Positions 53,961 to 63,339 of a stretch of 64,000 bases of DNA are shown here, piece by piece. Within the stretch, counting starts at the first letter, position 1, and every line of letters starts with the position of its first letter. Origin of the DNA: Spirochaetota bacterium (lineage in GTDB: Bacteria > Spirochaetota > UBA4802 > UBA5368); assembly GCA_035477215.1 (NCBI GenBank), contig DATIKU010000014.1, forward strand, positions 124,001 to 188,000. The letters are read 5' to 3'. The notes beneath the pieces were generated by a model. That model did no database searches, was not told the DNA's origin, and worked only from the letters and a program-made list of their open reading frames with translations. A program made the translations under genes and the position numbers.

Positions 53961-53985
53961 ATCACCCCGCTGAAAGCGGGGTGAT
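53961..53985 (+). other. Perfect 11-bp hairpin between TPR and unknown gene
   Basis: ATCACCCCGCT, GAA, AGCGGGGTGAT. No T-run follows, so it is unlikely to terminate fully; it may stabilise or process the mRNA between cotranscribed genes. It starts 10 bases after the TPR stop. Confidence 0.5.
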
Positions 53986-54074
53986 TGGCAAAAAGCCGCC
54001 ATCACGCCGAGCAATCGGCCGGAGAGACTGAGCACACGCAGGCGGACACTCATTTTACTCAAAAACAGGAAAAA

Positions 54075-54824
54075 ATGTTCACTAAATATTTTGAAGATGC
54101 GCAGAAACAACTCGTAAAAACCCCTTCCGGCGGCCGGGCTAAAACGCAGGTGAAGGCGAAGGGGAAGGCAACGCCCAAATCCGTCAAATCCGCCGATCCC
54201 GGCGCTGACGGCAAAATTGACATGCATGGATTGATGAAGACCATCGAGGGGATCGTTCCGCTTGAGCTTGATGTGGGCACACTCGGAATAATCGATCCCA
54301 GCGGATACTCTCCCGAAGGCGTCGATTTTATCACCTTCCGCCCATTGTGCAGGGACATGTCCGCGCTGATGGGCGGATACGTACCCTCCGAACTGGTATA
54401 CGGCACCTTCCACGTCTGCGGCGATTTCGGCAGGGAGAGCCTCCAGGGGGGCCTCAACAAGGTGATACAGGCCAAAAAGGTCAACATCTTCACGGAGGAC
54501 CGGCAGGACGTTCCGGCAATACCCGCATTCATTATCAGCGGCGGGGGCGGTATGAGACTGGAGGATGTAAAGGACACGATCGTCGATTACTACGTTTCAA
54601 AAAGTGTCGACTATATCCTCGAGTTCGACGTTCTGATGATCCTTAACAAGGGGCTTGTCGTTAAAAACTGGCGCGAAAAAAGGAGCTTCATCGCGCTCGA
54701 GACGGGTGCGGCCACACTCATGTGGTTCTACATCCTGATGCACGAATACCTCGACATGGAGCGTGGAAAGACCCTGGATCTCAGAAACTATGTAAAATAT
54801 ACGGAAAAGTACGCGGAATACTGA
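54075..54824 (+). CDS. Conserved-looking cytoplasmic protein, unknown function
   Basis: A 249-residue protein. A basic linker (about 10-45, rich in Lys) is followed by a compact alpha/beta domain with no family I recognise: GIIDPSGYSPEGVDFITFRPL, SELVYGTFHVCG, IPAFIISGGGGMRLEDVKDTI, IALETGAATLMWFYILMHEYLDM. No signal peptide. The ATG at 54075 has ACAGGA just upstream; the frame opens earlier with TTG at 53987, which is less likely. Its neighbours are TPR and VWA-domain genes, so an envelope or cell-structure role is possible. Confidence 0.6.
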   Translation: MFTKYFEDAQKQLVKTPSGGRAKTQVKAKGKATPKSVKSADPGADGKIDMHGLMKTIEGIVPLELDVGTLGIIDPSGYSPEGVDFITFRPLCRDMSALMGGYVPSELVYGTFHVCGDFGRESLQGGLNKVIQAKKVNIFTEDRQDVPAIPAFIISGGGGMRLEDVKDTIVDYYVSKSVDYILEFDVLMILNKGLVVKNWREKRSFIALETGAATLMWFYILMHEYLDMERGKTLDLRNYVKYTEKYAEY

Positions 54825-54919
54825 CCGATTTTATAAAAACCGGGTGATTTTTCGAAGGATTTTTCCCCGGGCAGCCGGCCGGGTGGAATGTCCGCTCCGC
54901 CGGGGCCCATCGCACATCC

Positions 54920-54975
54920 CGTCAATTTTATTGACGATAATTATTCTTGACAAAAACTGAAATTATTAATAGGCT
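54920..54975 (+). promoter_or_regulatory. Promoter and inverted repeat upstream of VWA gene
   Basis: CGTCAA, five bases, TTGACG (54920-54936) is an inverted repeat directly before a perfect -35 TTGACA at 54947-54952; the -10 after 17 bases (TAGGCT) is poor. The repeat could be an operator. Confidence 0.4.
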
Positions 54976-55041
54976 ATTGGTCCTAATAGCGGTCAGGTTT
55001 TCTCTGCGTATAACAACACCCTCGGTAAGGAGCGGTAAAGA

Positions 55042-56169
55042 GTGAAAGAGCAAAAACAGAGACTGGGCGCCCTGCGGGGGCTGTTCTTCGCGGGCCTTCT
55101 TTCCTCAATTCTTGTAATGCCGGGCGCCTGCGAGGCCAGGGAACAGAAAGACATGATCCTTGTCCTCGATACATCGATGAGCATGATCGGCAGCGGCGGC
55201 CGGAACATAATGGCGGGAGTGAAGGAAGGCCTGGACAAGTTCATCGATCAGCTCGAGGCGGGTGACAGCTTCACCTTCATCACCTTCGATACGGAAGTAA
55301 AGCTCTATCCGATTGTCTACATCCATGACAAAAACGACAAGGAAATCTTAAAGAAGTATGTCTCGGTGATTGAGGCGAAAGGGGCCTGGACCTACACGCA
55401 GGAGATGATTAGGAACGTATTCAAGACGGCTCAGAGCCTCGAAGAAAAGGAGAAGGGCAGACAGAGGGTTATCGTGGTCCTGACCGACGCGCTTGATGAT
55501 CCTCCTCCCGGGCGGCGTCACGAACGCTTCGATATCAAGAAAATTGCCAAGCAGTACAATAACAAGGACTGGTTTATTTTCCTCGTAAATCTCGGGGATA
55601 TCAAAACCGGCAGGATGATTGAAAAAGCCCAAAAGGACATAAAAGACAACATTTCACCGTACACCAGGGTCGTCGACGCGACCGATGCTCCGGGCAAGGT
55701 CATCGAGAAGCAGCTGATGCGGGATGTCCGCGACATGTCCGCCGAGCGGCGCGAGAATGAAAAGACCTTCCTCTCGAGTCCCTGGTTTCTCGGCGCCCTG
55801 GCGCTTCTGGTCGCGCTGGTTGTGCTGATTCTGGTGCGCCGTTACCTGGGGCTCCGGGTGAGCGGCGTGCTGGATTACTGGAACAACACCATCCTCGATC
55901 CGTATATCAACACGATCAATCTCTCGCGGCAGGAGGGCCGGAAAATAAGCATCGGCCGCGGAAGCGGCCTTACGGTAAACATCAGGGACATCGAGATTGC
56001 GGAGCCGTTCAGGGTCGTCGCGCGCCGCGACAAGGGCGTGATAAAATGTGCGCTCCAGTGGGGAAACAGTTATACCATAGAGTTCCAGAACGGGGTGCAG
56101 GGTGAATACCTGAAAGACGGGGACGTATTCAAGGTGGCGAACTATACGTTTAAGTACAGTATCGATTGA
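55042..56169 (+). CDS. VWA-domain membrane protein with FHA-like C-terminus
   Basis: A 375-residue protein. A signal peptide (about 1-32) and a von Willebrand A domain (about 35-230) with the metal-site motif DTSMS at 43-47 and VVLTDALDD further on. A membrane helix (about 253-275) follows, then a short beta-rich segment (about 305-375; KISIGRGSGLTVNIRDIEI and the DGDVFKVANYTFKY end) that resembles an FHA fold. That gives an extracytoplasmic VWA and a cytoplasmic FHA-like part. Starts GTG, with AAGGAG upstream. VWA and FHA modules often mediate protein contacts. Confidence 0.8.
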   Translation: MKEQKQRLGALRGLFFAGLLSSILVMPGACEAREQKDMILVLDTSMSMIGSGGRNIMAGVKEGLDKFIDQLEAGDSFTFITFDTEVKLYPIVYIHDKNDKEILKKYVSVIEAKGAWTYTQEMIRNVFKTAQSLEEKEKGRQRVIVVLTDALDDPPPGRRHERFDIKKIAKQYNNKDWFIFLVNLGDIKTGRMIEKAQKDIKDNISPYTRVVDATDAPGKVIEKQLMRDVRDMSAERRENEKTFLSSPWFLGALALLVALVVLILVRRYLGLRVSGVLDYWNNTILDPYINTINLSRQEGRKISIGRGSGLTVNIRDIEIAEPFRVVARRDKGVIKCALQWGNSYTIEFQNGVQGEYLKDGDVFKVANYTFKYSID

Positions 56170-56378: not shown

Positions 56379-58337
56379 ATGTCGATAACTCAATTACCCA
56401 AGAGCCCGAATAAATTTCATCCTACCGAGCCGAGCGCGGTCGGGTCGCGGAATTCGATCGCTCAGGAAGGGCGCGATAAGATCGCGGAATCGAAGCTTGT
56501 CATTGATGAAACATCGGACAAGGTATTAAATACCATCATGAACAAACTTCCCGAAGAGGTTCTCTCGAGGCTTGACGTGATGGGCGGGCTGAAAGAGAAA
56601 ATATACAACTACGTCAACCAGGCGTACGTCAACATGGCCAACCGCTACACGGTCACCATGGAAGACGAATTTTTAAAGAAGGTTCGCGACTTCGTCGACA
56701 AGGAAGAGGCCAAGGGACTGGCCCGTTATACTTCCCGCGAGATGATCGAGCTTCTCGACAAGATCGGGGGCGCCGACAAGTTCAACACCGGCGAAATCGA
56801 GAAGTCGATGGTCAATATGTACGGGCACCTTCAGGGCCATATCCAGCGCGGCATGAACGACCTCGAAAATGAGACCAACGCCATACTGAGACAGAAGACC
56901 GACGTCGGTGCCTTTGTCCGCGGTGAAAACGCCTATGCAATTATCAAGTGCATCTTCAAGGACAATCAGCTTCGGCCCAAGTTCGTTTACGACGTCAAAC
57001 TGTCGATCAACATCCTCGACAGCGAGCTGGTGAGCCCGATCTACCACTACCAGGTAACCGTCGAGTCTCTCCTTAAAGACGCCATCCAGAAGCACATCCA
57101 GGACCTCATCGACAAGCAGGTACAGCAGCTTACCGAGGAGCTGGTCGACCAGGGCAAGAGCGAACTGTCGGGCTCGGAGATAATGTTCGAAAAGATCAAG
57201 AGGATCGACAGCTATACCGACGACGACAAGGAAGACGAGAAGTCCCGCCGGTACACCATTCTCGCCAAAAGGTTCCTGGACAAGATCGAAGGCCTCCGCG
57301 CCGAGATCGACATCGAGGAGTACGATCCGCTGAACATCCGAGAGAACATCAAGCATATCATTGACTCCGAAAATATCCGTAACCGCGGCTACAACACCGC
57401 GATCAACGCACTTACCTCGATCCTCGACACCTCGAAGCTCGGCTATCAAGTGTGCGACAACATGAAGAACGCCCGCATATGCCAGATCAGGGAATACGAG
57501 GAGATGGACAGGACGATCCTTCCCGACGAGCGCTATGCCATCAGGCTGGCCTACTACGACCAGAACCAGTTGCGCGAAGAGAAGCGCGAGTTCGACCGCC
57601 AGATGGAAGGCTTCACGAAGGAGATTCTGCGCGCATGGGACGTTGTGCATGCCCATTATGAGTCCAAGAAGCGCTTCCGTTCGCTGAAGGATTTCGACGA
57701 TCTCTGCAGCCGCCTCATGAGCAAGGAGTGGAGACGCGGAAAGAAGGAAGAAGAGGCCGATCCCAACAGCGTTCTCTGGAACGAGCTCGGCGAGCTATAC
57801 AACGAAGGCAGCTTCGTCGAGAAGAACAACAGGACCTACGAGGACAGGATACTCAACCTCAAGGGCAAGTTGAAATACCTCAGAGAGATTTTACAGAACA
57901 TGCATGGCTACCAGAACCCGATCGAGCGCGTAATCCTCGACGAGCGCCTGAGCTTCCTTGACAGGAAATTCAATGAATTCACCTACAAGATCAACCCGCA
58001 CCACATTCAGCCGGGGCTCATCCTCGACGTCGACGTTACGACGATCAAGAGGAAGCAGTACATGCTCAAGGGTATGGCGAATGTTCTGAACGAGTTCCTG
58101 TACGGTATCTCGAAGGGATTCGCCGACGCGGCATTCGCCCAGTTCAAGAGAAGGAGGTCGACCGTTCGTTCGGACATCTCGCAGTCTTTCGGCGAAGAAG
58201 AGATCAAGGAAGATATTTTCGAGACCGCTTATAAAACGGCCGCCGACGCTGCTGAAGTCGCGGAAGTGAAGGGATCCATAAACCTTTCGCCCCGTCTAAA
58301 GCCGAAAGGCAAGGCTTCCGGTCTGAAAGAACTGTAA
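56379..58337 (+). CDS. cfpA: Cytoplasmic filament protein CfpA-type
   Basis: A 652-residue largely helical protein without signal peptide or membrane segment. Content and order (KIYNYVNQAYVNMANRYTVT, GGADKFNTGEIEKSMVNMYGHLQG, QKTDVGAFVRGENAYAIIKC and the later long coiled-coil helices) match my recollection of treponemal CfpA, the subunit of the ribbon-like filaments lying under the inner membrane in Treponema. Length is close to the roughly 680 residues there. It has its own promoter and terminator. An unknown gene and a PPDK-like gene follow on the same strand, as I recall in Treponema. The identification rests on memory of the family. Confidence 0.75.
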   Translation: MSITQLPKSPNKFHPTEPSAVGSRNSIAQEGRDKIAESKLVIDETSDKVLNTIMNKLPEEVLSRLDVMGGLKEKIYNYVNQAYVNMANRYTVTMEDEFLKKVRDFVDKEEAKGLARYTSREMIELLDKIGGADKFNTGEIEKSMVNMYGHLQGHIQRGMNDLENETNAILRQKTDVGAFVRGENAYAIIKCIFKDNQLRPKFVYDVKLSINILDSELVSPIYHYQVTVESLLKDAIQKHIQDLIDKQVQQLTEELVDQGKSELSGSEIMFEKIKRIDSYTDDDKEDEKSRRYTILAKRFLDKIEGLRAEIDIEEYDPLNIRENIKHIIDSENIRNRGYNTAINALTSILDTSKLGYQVCDNMKNARICQIREYEEMDRTILPDERYAIRLAYYDQNQLREEKREFDRQMEGFTKEILRAWDVVHAHYESKKRFRSLKDFDDLCSRLMSKEWRRGKKEEEADPNSVLWNELGELYNEGSFVEKNNRTYEDRILNLKGKLKYLREILQNMHGYQNPIERVILDERLSFLDRKFNEFTYKINPHHIQPGLILDVDVTTIKRKQYMLKGMANVLNEFLYGISKGFADAAFAQFKRRRSTVRSDISQSFGEEEIKEDIFETAYKTAADAAEVAEVKGSINLSPRLKPKGKASGLKEL

Positions 58338-58579: not shown

Positions 58580-59491
58580 ATGGAAAGCGCTTTTTATTCG
58601 CTTGCGACCAAGAGCAATTTCAACAAGGCACTGAACCACTTCTTCAAGGTCAATGAGATCGTCGATTACCTCGATTCAAAAAGAAATCTCGCCGATGTCA
58701 TAAACGCCGATCTCGACCAGAACGAGATCATGATAGACCAGATTCTTCCGATCGTCGGGGCGGTGATCCGCGATAAGTACCGGTATTCATACGATTCATA
58801 CAATGTTCACGAAAAGGTAACCGACTTCGCGAAGCTGGCCGGGGAGACCGCCAAGTGGACGGCGCTGGACATACTGATCGTTTACTACACCCCGGCGGGG
58901 GAGATATCGCTTGTTAATCCCAAGAATATGGCCCACTGGGACAGGGTTCGCGAACTGGCAAAAGACCAGGCGATGGTCATATACGCGCGCCATCTGAAAG
59001 AGGAAAAAGACTCCAAGATCGAGCACGAGGCGATCGCGGCCATTGAGGAGATGATCGCCGGCAAGGACGTATTCATCAACAAGGACTTCATCGACCAGAC
59101 GGTCGCGCCCAAGGCGGCCCCGCCAAGGCCGGTGGTGCAGGCGGCAGCGGCGGCCGGACAGAGAAGGATGACTCCCAAGTATTCCGTCCAGGTGACCAAC
59201 GAGCTTTTCCATAATGGAAACGTGGAGGCCTGGAAACGAATCATCGAAAGCTATAAGGTCGCTCATCCGGACATCGAAGTAAGGATATTTTATGAGAACG
59301 AGCTTATCAATGATATCAATACCCTTTTTAAATGGGGCAAAGTGAAGACGGGCGGTTTGATTTTCTTCCAGGCTTCGGGCGAGAATATCCGTAACGTTTC
59401 CAAGCTGCAGAAGTACCTCTTCGAGGGTGCAAGCCCCCGTTTCGAACAGTTCCTCAAGCTTGGCGTCGGCAAAGTTCTCAAGCTTTTCTAA
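58580..59491 (+). CDS. Unknown protein paired with PPDK-like gene
   Basis: A 303-residue cytoplasmic protein. The N-terminal helical domain (about 1-155) and the C-terminal alpha/beta domain (about 195-303; SVQVTNELFHNGNVEAWKRIIE, EVRIFYENELINDINTLFKW) are joined by an Ala/Pro linker (about 170-195). No motif or family is recognised. AAGGAG precedes the ATG. It lies between cfpA and the PPDK-like gene; the next gene starts 56 bases on. The same three-gene order exists, as far as I recall, in Treponema pallidum (TP0746-TP0748). Confidence 0.7.
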   Translation: MESAFYSLATKSNFNKALNHFFKVNEIVDYLDSKRNLADVINADLDQNEIMIDQILPIVGAVIRDKYRYSYDSYNVHEKVTDFAKLAGETAKWTALDILIVYYTPAGEISLVNPKNMAHWDRVRELAKDQAMVIYARHLKEEKDSKIEHEAIAAIEEMIAGKDVFINKDFIDQTVAPKAAPPRPVVQAAAAAGQRRMTPKYSVQVTNELFHNGNVEAWKRIIESYKVAHPDIEVRIFYENELINDINTLFKWGKVKTGGLIFFQASGENIRNVSKLQKYLFEGASPRFEQFLKLGVGKVLKLF

Positions 59492-59546: not shown

Positions 59547-62138
59547 ATGGAAAACATAGTTTATTTCAGCAAGGACCTCAAAGAGCTTGATGAGAAAGTT
59601 AAAAAAAGACTCGGTATTCGGGGACGGCGCGCGGTTGAGCTTGCGATGATGGGCCTCCCGATAGCTCCCGGCTTTATTATAGATTCGGAGCTTACAAGGA
59701 AGCTGCCACAGGTAAATTTGAAGGAGTTTTTAAAGACTCATATAGACCACCTCGAAAAAGAAACCAAAAAGGGATTCGGCGATGCGAAAAGGCCGCTCCT
59801 TCTCAAGGTGGTTTTAAGCTCGGATTTCAATGTGCCGTATTTCCCCTCGATACACAACATAGGGCTCAACGACAAGACGGTGACCGGCTTCGGACAGTTT
59901 ACCGGATTGGATTTCGCATACGGTGAATACAGGTTTTTACTGAGGAGCGTGGGGACAAAAATATACAGCCTGGAGGCCGCGGACTTCGACAAGATGGACG
60001 CGAAGGGCGCGAAGCAGAAGGCCGAAGACATAAAGAAGGCCGTGGATAATTTTAAGAAGTACCTTGGTGACAAATACAGCGAAGACGTGTACGACCAGCT
60101 CGGTCTTATACTGAAAGGGGCGGCTTCCAGGTATTGCGACTCCGAGATCGATGTGGACGATTCACTCTCCATCATGGTGCAGGCGATGGTCTACGGCAAC
60201 TTCGGCAACAATTCCTATTCGGGGAATTACTATACGAGGAATATCATTACGGGTGACCCGCTTATCCAGGGTAGCTTTCTCCAGAACGCCTTCGACATCG
60301 ACAAGAGCAAGTCGAAGGATATTGCAAAGATCGATAAAAAGTATTTCGACAAGTTCTCAGACATAGCCAAGAAAGTGGAGGAGAAGTTCAAGGAGATCCG
60401 GGAGATCAAGTTCACCATCGAGGAAGGCGATTTCTGGCTGGTTGAGCAAAGGGACGTTGACGAAAAATCGACCCAGGCGCACATCAAAACGCTGCTCGAT
60501 CTATGCAAGCGGAAAAGCGTGACCGAAGAATACGTGGTCGGCAATATCAAGCCGGCCCAGCTTAACGAGCTTCTGCACCCCGTTATCGATCCAAGGACGA
60601 TCGGCGGCGTCAAGACCATCAAGGGCGGGATTTCCGGATCGCCCGGGGCGGCGATCGGCCGGGTGTTCTTCTCGACGCCGAAGCTGCTTGAGGAATATAA
60701 AAAAGCGATCATGCACGGGGGCGACACCAACCTGATTCTGGTGATGCCCTCAAGTTACGCGGAGGATGTCAAGGCGATCGAGGTCGCGAAGGGCGTTATG
60801 ACCACGGAGGGCGGGTTCTCTTCACACGCCCCGGTGGTCGCTCGCAGTTTGGGAAAGGTCGCCATGGTTCAGCCGGACATGAGGATTCGCGGCACTACTT
60901 TCACACTGGCCGGCAAGACGGTAAAGGAAGGGGACTACGTTTCGATCAACGTTCCCTATTACGAACCGCCGACGATATATCTGGGGAAGGTCGGCCTCAT
61001 CGAACCGAACGTAAAGGAAAACGGGCTCATCGACTTTCTTAAAATCGTGGAAAAGTTTATTGATGATTTCGATGTTCGCGCCAACGCCGATCAGGGGCGC
61101 GACGCCAAGCTCGCCCGCGAGTTCAACGCCGTTGGTATCGGCCTGTGCAGGACCGAGCACATGTTCTTTAACGAGAAGCGCATCATGAGGTTCCGGGAGA
61201 TGATCCTCGCCGAGTCCGAGGATGAGCGCAGGAAAACCCTGGATGCGTTGAAGCCCATGCAGCGCTCGGACTTCTACGACCTCTTCAAGACGATGGTCGG
61301 GTTCCCGGTAACCATTCGCCTGCTCGACGCGCCTTTACATGAATTCCTGCCGCGTACGGACGCGAGTATGAAGGAGTTTATACGGCACATGCAGGGCCGG
61401 GGAAAGGCCCCCAAGCCCGCCGAAATAATGGCGCGCTGCGAGGAGCTCTCGGAGATGAACCCGATGCTCGGGCATCGCGGGTGCCGGGTCGCGATCACTT
61501 ATCCGGAAATCTACGAAATGCAGTGCCGCGCGATCTTCGAGGCGGCCTGCATGCTGAGAAAAGAGGGCATAAAAATCAAACCCGAAATCATGATTCCGAT
61601 TGTCATGACCGAGCACGAGCTGAAGTTCATCAAAAACGGCAAGAAAATCGAAGGAAAGGTCGTCAAGGGTATACGGGACATAAAGGACGAAGTGGTCATG
61701 GAGTATGGCGTCGAGGACCTCGACTACAGCGTTGGGACCATGATAGAGCTTCCCGCGGCGGCCCTCGGCGCGGGCGCTATCGCGCAGCATGCGGAGTTCT
61801 TCAGCTTCGGCACGAACGACCTTACCCAGACAACGTACGGACTCTCTCGCGACGACATCAACTCGTTCTTCCCGAGCTACTCGCTCTACGACCTCATCCG
61901 CAACAATCCTTTCCAGGTGCTGGGCGAGCAGGTAAAGGAGCTCATCGAAGTCGCCGCGCTCCGCGGGCGGCTCACCCGCCCGGACATCAAGATGGGACTG
62001 TGCGGCGAGCACGGAGCGGACCCGGAGAATATCGAGTTCTGCATCAATGTGGGACTGAACTACGTTTCGTGTAATCCGTATTCAATCCCGCTCGCAAAGC
62101 TCGCGGTTGCACAGTACAACCTGCGGGAAGAAGAATAG
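59547..62138 (+). CDS. Pyruvate phosphate dikinase homologue with degenerate ATP-grasp
   Basis: An 863-residue protein of PPDK length. The swivelling phosphohistidine domain (about 370-480) has His427 in EGGFSSHAPVVAR; the PEP/pyruvate barrel (about 505-863) is fully recognisable (GLCRTEHMFF, RLLDAPLHEF, GHRGCR, FGTNDLTQTTYG, GLCGEHGAD, NYVSCNPYSIP). The N-terminal ATP-grasp is divergent: the GGKGA loop reads GIRGR, the VRSGA segment is KVVLSS with Val89 where the nucleotide-binding Arg sits, and the MPGMMDT loop is lost. VQAMVYGNFG and FWLVEQRD remain. ATP binding is thus doubtful. It is paired with the preceding 303-residue gene. Confidence 0.85.
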   Translation: MENIVYFSKDLKELDEKVKKRLGIRGRRAVELAMMGLPIAPGFIIDSELTRKLPQVNLKEFLKTHIDHLEKETKKGFGDAKRPLLLKVVLSSDFNVPYFPSIHNIGLNDKTVTGFGQFTGLDFAYGEYRFLLRSVGTKIYSLEAADFDKMDAKGAKQKAEDIKKAVDNFKKYLGDKYSEDVYDQLGLILKGAASRYCDSEIDVDDSLSIMVQAMVYGNFGNNSYSGNYYTRNIITGDPLIQGSFLQNAFDIDKSKSKDIAKIDKKYFDKFSDIAKKVEEKFKEIREIKFTIEEGDFWLVEQRDVDEKSTQAHIKTLLDLCKRKSVTEEYVVGNIKPAQLNELLHPVIDPRTIGGVKTIKGGISGSPGAAIGRVFFSTPKLLEEYKKAIMHGGDTNLILVMPSSYAEDVKAIEVAKGVMTTEGGFSSHAPVVARSLGKVAMVQPDMRIRGTTFTLAGKTVKEGDYVSINVPYYEPPTIYLGKVGLIEPNVKENGLIDFLKIVEKFIDDFDVRANADQGRDAKLAREFNAVGIGLCRTEHMFFNEKRIMRFREMILAESEDERRKTLDALKPMQRSDFYDLFKTMVGFPVTIRLLDAPLHEFLPRTDASMKEFIRHMQGRGKAPKPAEIMARCEELSEMNPMLGHRGCRVAITYPEIYEMQCRAIFEAACMLRKEGIKIKPEIMIPIVMTEHELKFIKNGKKIEGKVVKGIRDIKDEVVMEYGVEDLDYSVGTMIELPAAALGAGAIAQHAEFFSFGTNDLTQTTYGLSRDDINSFFPSYSLYDLIRNNPFQVLGEQVKELIEVAALRGRLTRPDIKMGLCGEHGADPENIEFCINVGLNYVSCNPYSIPLAKLAVAQYNLREEE

Positions 62139-62217: not shown

Positions 62218-63144
62218 TCAGAGGTACTGTACCGAGGCAAAGGAGCGGCGTATTCCCCGGGAGTAACGGAAAGCGGGATATCCGAGTATCATCGCCAGCG
62301 ACACGCTGTTTTTGTCCGGTATTCCCCACTTTCTCTTCAGACGTTTTTCGCGGTTGATTGCGAACGACACGGTGCCGATCATGCAGCTTCCCAGCCCAAT
62401 CGCTTCCGCGGCGGTCATCGCATACGTGCATGCGATGCTTCCGTCCACGGGGTCGGCATAGGGCGATTGATGGAACAGCAATACGCACGGGGCGTGGTAG
62501 AAGAGGTAGTCCGTAGTATCAGACCGCGCCTCTGTTATGGCGCGTAAGGCCGGGATGACAAATCCTTCCATCATTTCAGCGTCGGTCTTTTTCATGAAGG
62601 GAACCGCGAGGGTCTTTATTACCGGGTTGTCGAAAATGAGCCACTTTTTAAATATACCGCAAATGTCCCCGGCGAGTTCCCAGACGCGTTCCGTCGACAT
62701 CACCGCGACAACCCCGACGTCCGATGGCGGCAGGCCCATGGGCGCGGTCGAAGCGACCGAAATAATTTTTTCGATCGATGCTTTTTCGACGGGGCGATCG
62801 CTGAACTCGCGCACGCTTCTGCGCGAGGCCAGCAGATTATACAGGGCGCCAAGGGAGGCGCGTTCATTCTTTTTCGGCAGGGGAAATGAGTATTCAGGGT
62901 CGACGCCGCGTCCGGTGACCGAAATGGCGCTGCGCGGGCAGACGAGCATGCACTGCGCACAGCCTATACAGCCCAGGCCGTTGTCGGGAAATATTTCGGG
63001 CCTTCCGTCCACGTCGAGAATGGTGAACGACTTGCATACCCTTGCGCACAGGCCGCATGAAGTGCAACGGCAGTAGTCTATCGAGGGACGGGCCGGTTCG
63101 TCACCGAAGCCCGTTTTGATCGTTTTCCCCGGCCTGTCTTTCAT
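62218..63144 (-). CDS. Nitroreductase with N-terminal 2[4Fe-4S] ferredoxin domain
   Basis: A 308-residue Fe-S flavoprotein. Two cluster motifs, CRCTSCGLCARVC and CIGCAQCMLVC, occupy about residues 25-75. A nitroreductase-fold FMN domain follows (about 95-290; ASRRSVREFSDRPV, AMTAAEAIGLGSCMIGT, MILGYPAF). Such fusions often use ferredoxin-type electrons to reduce an unidentified substrate. The ATG at 63144 is preceded by GGAG; the upstream AT-rich frame extension to 63306 is not coding. It is divergent from the thiolase. Confidence 0.9.
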   Translation of the reverse strand: MKDRPGKTIKTGFGDEPARPSIDYCRCTSCGLCARVCKSFTILDVDGRPEIFPDNGLGCIGCAQCMLVCPRSAISVTGRGVDPEYSFPLPKKNERASLGALYNLLASRRSVREFSDRPVEKASIEKIISVASTAPMGLPPSDVGVVAVMSTERVWELAGDICGIFKKWLIFDNPVIKTLAVPFMKKTDAEMMEGFVIPALRAITEARSDTTDYLFYHAPCVLLFHQSPYADPVDGSIACTYAMTAAEAIGLGSCMIGTVSFAINREKRLKRKWGIPDKNSVSLAMILGYPAFRYSRGIRRSFASVQYL

Positions 63145-63339
63145 GATATATCTCCGGCGTTTTTGTAATCGGTTAAGGTTAAAAATATAAAGCATATAAT
63201 TCAACCTATTAATGGCGTGTTTCCAGGTGCTGATGGAGACAGTGTCATGCAACATGTAATGGCGAATGTAATAATAATTAAAATTGTCTTGATAATATTT
63301 GGCCACTTATTACCTTTTCCAAAAAAAGGAGATGGGTCT

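Follow-up and report, generated by a model that had tools for sequence, protein, structure and literature searches.

The cfpA gene unit

The window, which is the whole 64,000-nucleotide stretch of spirochaetal DNA that was analyzed, contains the gene for cytoplasmic filament protein A (CfpA), followed on the same strand by a gene for a 303-aa protein and by a gene that resembles pyruvate phosphate dikinase (PPDK). The coordinates of these genes and of their domains are given in Table 1.

Table 1. Genes, domains and catalytic codons of the cfpA gene unit (window coordinates)
Feature	Position	Strand	Basis
cfpA, cytoplasmic filament protein A	56379..58337	+	NF040882, 911 bits (cut-off 500)
303-aa middle gene (TP0747/TDE0843 equivalent); N-terminal and predicted HPr-like C-terminal domain	58580..59491	+	directly upstream of PPDK-like gene; AF2, Foldseek
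Predicted HPr-like domain, residues 201-283 of the 303-aa protein	59180..59428	+	strand/helix order, Foldseek, hhalign shuffle test
Codon of invariant His211 (position of HPr His15)	59210..59212	+	66/66 sequences
PPDK-like gene, ATP site lost; TP0746 family	59547..62138	+	intact ORF, full-length PPDK match, PPDK fold, family-wide residue table
Remodelled ATP-grasp domain, residues ~4-308	59556..60470	+	aligned to C. symbiosum 13-340; new family invariants
Phosphohistidine domain, residues ~358-511	60618..61079	+	PF00391 at residues 395-467; match to solved His-domain structure 2fm4
Codon of catalytic His427 (C. symbiosum His455)	60825..60827	+	His in all family members aligned there
PEP-binding domain, residues 506-858, catalytic residues kept	61062..62120	+	PF02896, 5e-69; residue equivalents

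Upstream of cfpA (53985-56169, + strand) lie genes for a 279-aa protein that has no Pfam match and for a protein with a von Willebrand A (VWA) domain, and the arrangement 279-aa, VWA, cfpA, 303-aa, PPDK-like is maintained in many loci of the same order. The PPDK-like gene and a gene for a ferredoxin-nitroreductase fusion (62218-63306, - strand) converge; of the loci that were fetched, only those of the nearest relatives have the fusion.

The PPDK-like protein and its ATP site

The PPDK-like ORF is intact and encodes a protein of 863 aa that aligns end to end with the PPDK of Clostridium symbiosum (1dik; E 1.8e-162). An AlphaFold2 model, made from 67 family sequences (pLDDT 87), has the PPDK fold over its full length, with 1vbg as the best Foldseek match (1.5e-68) and a TM of 0.76 to 5jvj. 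However, the protein scores below the cut-off of the PPDK equivalog model TIGR01828 (716.1 bits; cut-off 843.45), and it also scores below that of the enzyme I model TIGR01417 (112.6 bits; cut-off 341.7).

Residues K22, R92, E323, Q335 and R337 of C. symbiosum PPDK matter for the nucleotide half-reaction, and structures of the K22A and R337A mutants are present in the PDB. In the window protein, Lys22 is replaced by Arg25, Arg92 by Val89, Gly101 by Tyr98, Met103 by Phe99, Arg135 by Phe130, Glu279 by Ile251, Glu323 by Lys288 and Gln335 by Glu300, and the PGMMDT loop is gone; Arg337 is retained as Arg302. A further change, Asp321 to Glu286, is left out of the losses as it is conservative and the position varies across the family. 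The residues of the other half-reaction, equivalent to His455, Arg561, Arg617, Glu745, Asn768, Asp769 and Cys831, are all retained.

An initial annotation of this DNA had proposed just such a division, with intact phosphohistidine and PEP domains and an ATP-grasp domain that had lost the Arg of VRSGA (Val89), the MPGMMDT loop and the GGKG motif. The intact domains and the first two losses are borne out by the alignment of the window protein to the C. symbiosum enzyme, in which neither the Arg nor the loop turns up at a shifted position. The claim about GGKG applies in part: its Lys has become an invariant Arg, but the outer glycines remain (GIRG). The idea that the ATP residues have merely been moved was also set aside; K87 might partly compensate, yet the acidic residue at position 323 is now basic.

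These changes are characteristic of a family. Position 22 (C. symbiosum numbering) is Arg in 87/87 relatives from across the Spirochaetota, and a basic residue (Lys or Arg) occupies position 323 in 84 of them. Position 92 is Val or Ile in 87/87; this was the position by which family members were told apart from canonical PPDKs. In contrast, the 14 canonical PPDKs that were compared (the second PPDK of the same genome, those of other spirochaetes and those of other phyla) all retain the original ATP-site residues (Lys22, Arg92, the PGMMDT loop, Glu323 and Gln335). The phosphohistidine and the PEP/pyruvate residues, from His455 to Cys831, are retained in every family member that covers them, and Arg337 is kept in many members besides the window protein. 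In a tree of 60 sequences, a single branch with 100% SH-aLRT support separates the PPDK-like family from canonical PPDK. The pattern at the ATP site is not a product of chance: the loss is real, old and fixed throughout the family. An assembly or frameshift artefact is ruled out by the intact ORF and by identical changes in 87 relatives from many assemblies. In the second PPDK of the same genome (L116:1425-4610, - strand; L002/L116), the C terminus is extended by ~100 residues, many of them Lys, Ala or Pro; the C. symbiosum enzyme has no such tail.

The two halves of the protein have evolved differently. When divergence in the ATP-grasp domain is set against that in the PEP domain, the slope is 1.98 in the PPDK-like family versus 0.94 in canonical PPDK, a rate about twice as fast; 17 of 86 canonical invariants survive in the ATP-grasp domain of the family versus 72 of 108 in the PEP domain. 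At the same time, nine positions of the ATP-grasp domain have become newly fixed (R25, K87, V89, S91, H103, F249, R285, W297 and Q301), several of them basic and at or beside the former ATP and metal positions. Because new invariant residues have arisen there, the domain looks rebuilt for another role rather than decaying. Thus, in the initial annotation's "probably dead" ATP-grasp domain, the loss of the ATP site stands and is fixed in the family, but "dead" is too strong for a domain that has invariants of its own. These invariants, together with the invariant PEP site, also rule out a pseudogene or decaying paralogue. PPDK activity has very probably been lost.

What the remodelled domain would now accept can be read in more than one way. 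It might take another small donor or acceptor, such as PPi, a sugar phosphate or another nucleotide; the protein would then be a PEP-dependent small-molecule kinase. The new invariant basic residues (R25, K87, R285 and K/R288) at or beside the former ATP and metal positions would suit such a role, and rifampin phosphotransferase provides a precedent, showing that a change of acceptor is possible within the superfamily. However, there is no family-specific acidic metal ligand at 321/323, and the neighborhood consists of a filament protein and a predicted HPr-like protein rather than a metabolic pathway; a small-molecule kinase is very unlikely.

Co-inheritance with cfpA

Of 78 loci whose upstream sequence is long enough, 76 have the 303-aa gene immediately ahead of the PPDK-like gene, and the order cfpA, 303-aa gene, PPDK-like gene is found in 58 of 63 loci. 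Among 393 Spirochaetota genomes sampled, 137 have cfpA, 133 the PPDK-like gene and 132 the C-terminal domain of the 303-aa protein. Of the 141 genomes with at least one of these, 127 have the full set; because the genomes are related by descent, the Fisher p-value for this association should not be read literally. Most genomes without the full trio are incomplete assemblies, although one that is 93% complete (G117) has cfpA alone, without the other two genes. Linkage can be relaxed in various ways. The 303-aa gene stays beside the PPDK-like gene where cfpA lies elsewhere (G343, genus g4); it stays beside cfpA, with the PPDK-like gene some kilobases away, in one family (f34); and all three genes are unlinked in another (f32). 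In one genome (G212) the PPDK-like match is confined to the C-terminal two thirds and a stop interrupts the cfpA match, while another (G303) has only fragments of cfpA and lacks both partner genes; together these two hint at joint decay of cfpA and its partners. A further genome (G310) has two copies of cfpA (C1:845179-846993 and 2843679-2845493), the second of which adjoins the 303-aa and PPDK-like genes.

Such strict co-inheritance would also be expected if the PPDK-like protein were a structural or regulatory subunit of the filament, one that carries out no net chemistry, changes shape when it binds PEP or phosphorylates itself, and bridges or anchors CfpA filaments. Tomography by Izard in 2004 (cited in PMC3398590) reportedly revealed bridging and anchoring components of the filaments. 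The T. denticola protein, moreover, is abundant and is found in the same envelope fraction as CfpA: among the major envelope proteins of this species, TDE0844 is band 1 and CfpA band 3 (PMC3931704), a shared fraction that is not proof of binding. TDE0844 probably belongs to the PPDK-like family, judging from its position beside cfpA and from the presence of the family in genomes of that genus. The genes TDE0842-0844, which are annotated in the order cfpA, hypothetical, ppdK, respond together (PMC3914990), and a cfpA mutant has no filaments, its phenotype including both cell filamentation and chromosome condensation (PMC3398590). However, a purely structural role would have no need of the PEP half-reaction residues and the phosphohistidine, which no member covering them has lost; on balance, a subunit of this kind is rather unlikely. 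A role at the filament that leaves out the 303-aa protein was considered less likely as well, given that this protein is just as strictly co-inherited.

The 303-aa protein

Searches of Pfam and NCBIfam with the 303-aa protein gave zero matches, and PF00381 (PTS-HPr) is absent from the matches of 38 members of its family. The N-terminal domain is variable. Conservation is high over the C-terminal 106 residues, where NELFHNGNVEAWK and LFKWGKVK are almost fixed and His211 is invariant (66/66). In an AF2 model (pLDDT 86.7), residues 201-283 show the strand and helix order of HPr, and His211 sits just before the first helix, as does His15 in HPr. HPr and Crh dominate the well-superposed Foldseek matches, with a probability as high as 0.99, a TM as high as 0.67 (HPr side) and an rmsd as low as 2.6 Å, but their E-values are 0.06 or worse. 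Matches to berberine-bridge enzymes were dismissed (rmsd ~18 Å), and weak RxLR and folliculin matches were set aside as chance.

An hhalign alignment of the domain to HPr scores 20.8 with a probability of only 8.7%, and none of 200 column shuffles scored as well (best 20.3); the HPr profile included two sequences, of E. coli and B. subtilis, without which the score is slightly lower. The full-length alignment places His211 on HPr His15. The H-x-R-P motif of HPr is not matched, since the protein has HNGN and lacks the Arg and Pro that follow His15, and by sequence alone the homology to HPr does not reach firm significance. An HPr-like fold for the C-terminal domain is predicted by the model, and is a lead rather than proof.

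The Treponema proteins

The T. pallidum genome examined (G056) is presumably that of strain Nichols. Its family member is TP0746, which is 48% identical to the window protein, has the same residue losses and lies in the same cfpA, hypothetical, ppdK order; the coordinates given for two single-nucleotide variants in TP0746, 810772 and 811414 (PMC10013896), fall inside the PPDK-like match of this genome. At position 337 TP0746 has Lys, where the window protein has Arg. This family membership, like the 303-aa gene with its predicted HPr-like domain and the canonical PPDK elsewhere in the window's own genome, was not part of the initial annotation. In the open-access literature that was searched, no paper was found that remarks on the missing ATP site or deals with the 303-aa protein.

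If residues such as Arg25, Lys87 and Arg302 compensated for the lost ones, the protein would be a working PPDK with an unorthodox ATP site (PEP + AMP + PPi <-> pyruvate + ATP + Pi) and in T. pallidum would take the place of pyruvate kinase, the role with which it is at present credited. T. pallidum lacks pyruvate kinase (PMC8049484), none was found in the genome by a search in which 14/14 controls were positive, and TP0746 is the only protein of the genome with a PPDK_N match. TP0746 is highly expressed (PMC8525777), and published work regards the formation of pyruvate and ATP from PEP, AMP and PPi as its most likely reaction (PMC10013896). The retention of Arg337 in many members, the window protein among them, would also be in keeping with this activity. 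However, at least five ATP-site residues have been lost together, and T. pallidum itself has Lys at 337. Plant PPDK Arg95, which by numbering and motif should be the equivalent of C. symbiosum Arg92, is described as directly involved in ATP binding (PMC5507339). Furthermore, all ten other tested cfpA genomes that retain the PPDK-like gene have pyruvate kinase, and T. pallidum has both a GTP-dependent PEP carboxykinase (PEPCK) and an oxaloacetate decarboxylase beta (L140, L141), which could together carry PEP to pyruvate with a yield of NTP, independently of both pyruvate kinase and PPDK. Taken together, a functional PPDK appears improbable.

A proposed phosphate relay at the filament

In PPDK, a swivelling phosphohistidine domain shuttles between the PEP site and the ATP site. 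Since the PPDK-like family has kept the former intact but lost the latter, the simplest working machine would be one that resembles enzyme I of the phosphotransferase system (PTS). We propose that the spirochaetal family arose from PPDK by losing the ATP/AMP/PPi chemistry while retaining the PEP half-reaction. PEP would phosphorylate His427, with release of pyruvate, and the phosphorylated His427 on its swivelling domain would then turn to the former ATP-grasp face, which would dock a protein in place of ATP. The 303-aa protein is the natural candidate for the acceptor because it is a conserved neighbor with a predicted HPr-like domain and an invariant His. In such a scheme, His211 would most likely receive the phosphate, the pair would be comparable to enzyme I and HPr, and the 303-aa protein would tie the relay to the CfpA filament, so that the PEP level (the energy state) might influence filament assembly, anchoring or partner binding. 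Among the options that the initial annotation had raised, those of a phosphate carrier dependent on PEP and of a function next to CfpA would fit best. In favor of the relay count the fixed ATP-site losses beside an intact His427 and PEP site, the new invariants of the ATP-grasp domain, the gene unit and its co-inheritance, the predicted HPr-like fold with its invariant His211, and the T. denticola observations on envelope bands and joint response; against it count the poor E-values and low hhalign probability of the HPr match, the missing Arg and Pro, and the unlinked genes of family f32. An enzyme I-like PEP-dependent phosphotransferase on the filament, with the 303-aa protein as its acceptor, is the reading that we favor, plausible if somewhat short of probable; any particular effect of the relay on CfpA is held with less confidence than the relay itself.

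The broader proposal is put forward more tentatively: that a further PEP-phosphotransferase system, derived from a PPDK whose ATP site was exchanged for an HPr-like acceptor, controls the intermediate-filament-like cytoskeleton of spirochaetes, with the corollary that T. pallidum lacks both pyruvate kinase and a working PPDK. If this is true, T. pallidum must route PEP to pyruvate by other means, for example by PEPCK and oxaloacetate decarboxylase. An enzyme treated as glycolytic and ATP-forming in papers on syphilis would then be misannotated, and the route from PEP to pyruvate in an organism without pyruvate kinase would be reopened. Moreover, the cytoplasmic filament of spirochaetes would have gained two named partners that are strictly inherited with it, suggesting a metabolic phosphate relay that feeds a bacterial cytoskeleton.

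Comparison with known systems

PPDK, as known from C. symbiosum and plants and as defined by TIGR01828, shares with the window protein its fold over the whole length, its domain order, and its phosphohistidine and PEP sites. Unlike PPDK, the family lacks Lys22, Arg92, the PGMMDT loop, Glu323 and Gln335, and the window protein remains under the TIGR01828 cut-off; in the literature, TP0746 and TDE0844 are nevertheless annotated as "pyruvate phosphate dikinase", and TP0746 is treated there as glycolytic and ATP-forming. PEP synthase and rifampin phosphotransferase belong to the same superfamily and also combine ATP-grasp and phosphohistidine domains. Both of these families use ATP, and the domain order and sequence of the window protein are those of PPDK rather than theirs. 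The PTS proteins offer a parallel to the proposed chemistry, in which PEP would phosphorylate a His on a swivelling domain: the PEP domain of enzyme I is homologous, and the predicted HPr-like partner has a conserved His. However, the window protein has a PPDK-type ATP-grasp fold and not the helical HPr-binding domain of enzyme I, the 303-aa partner lacks the sequence signature of HPr, and the gene unit is with cfpA. Judged by its sequence, then, the protein is of PPDK descent, fails the ATP-site test that defines PPDK, and differs from enzyme I in its domain make-up; by analogy, it may nonetheless work like enzyme I.
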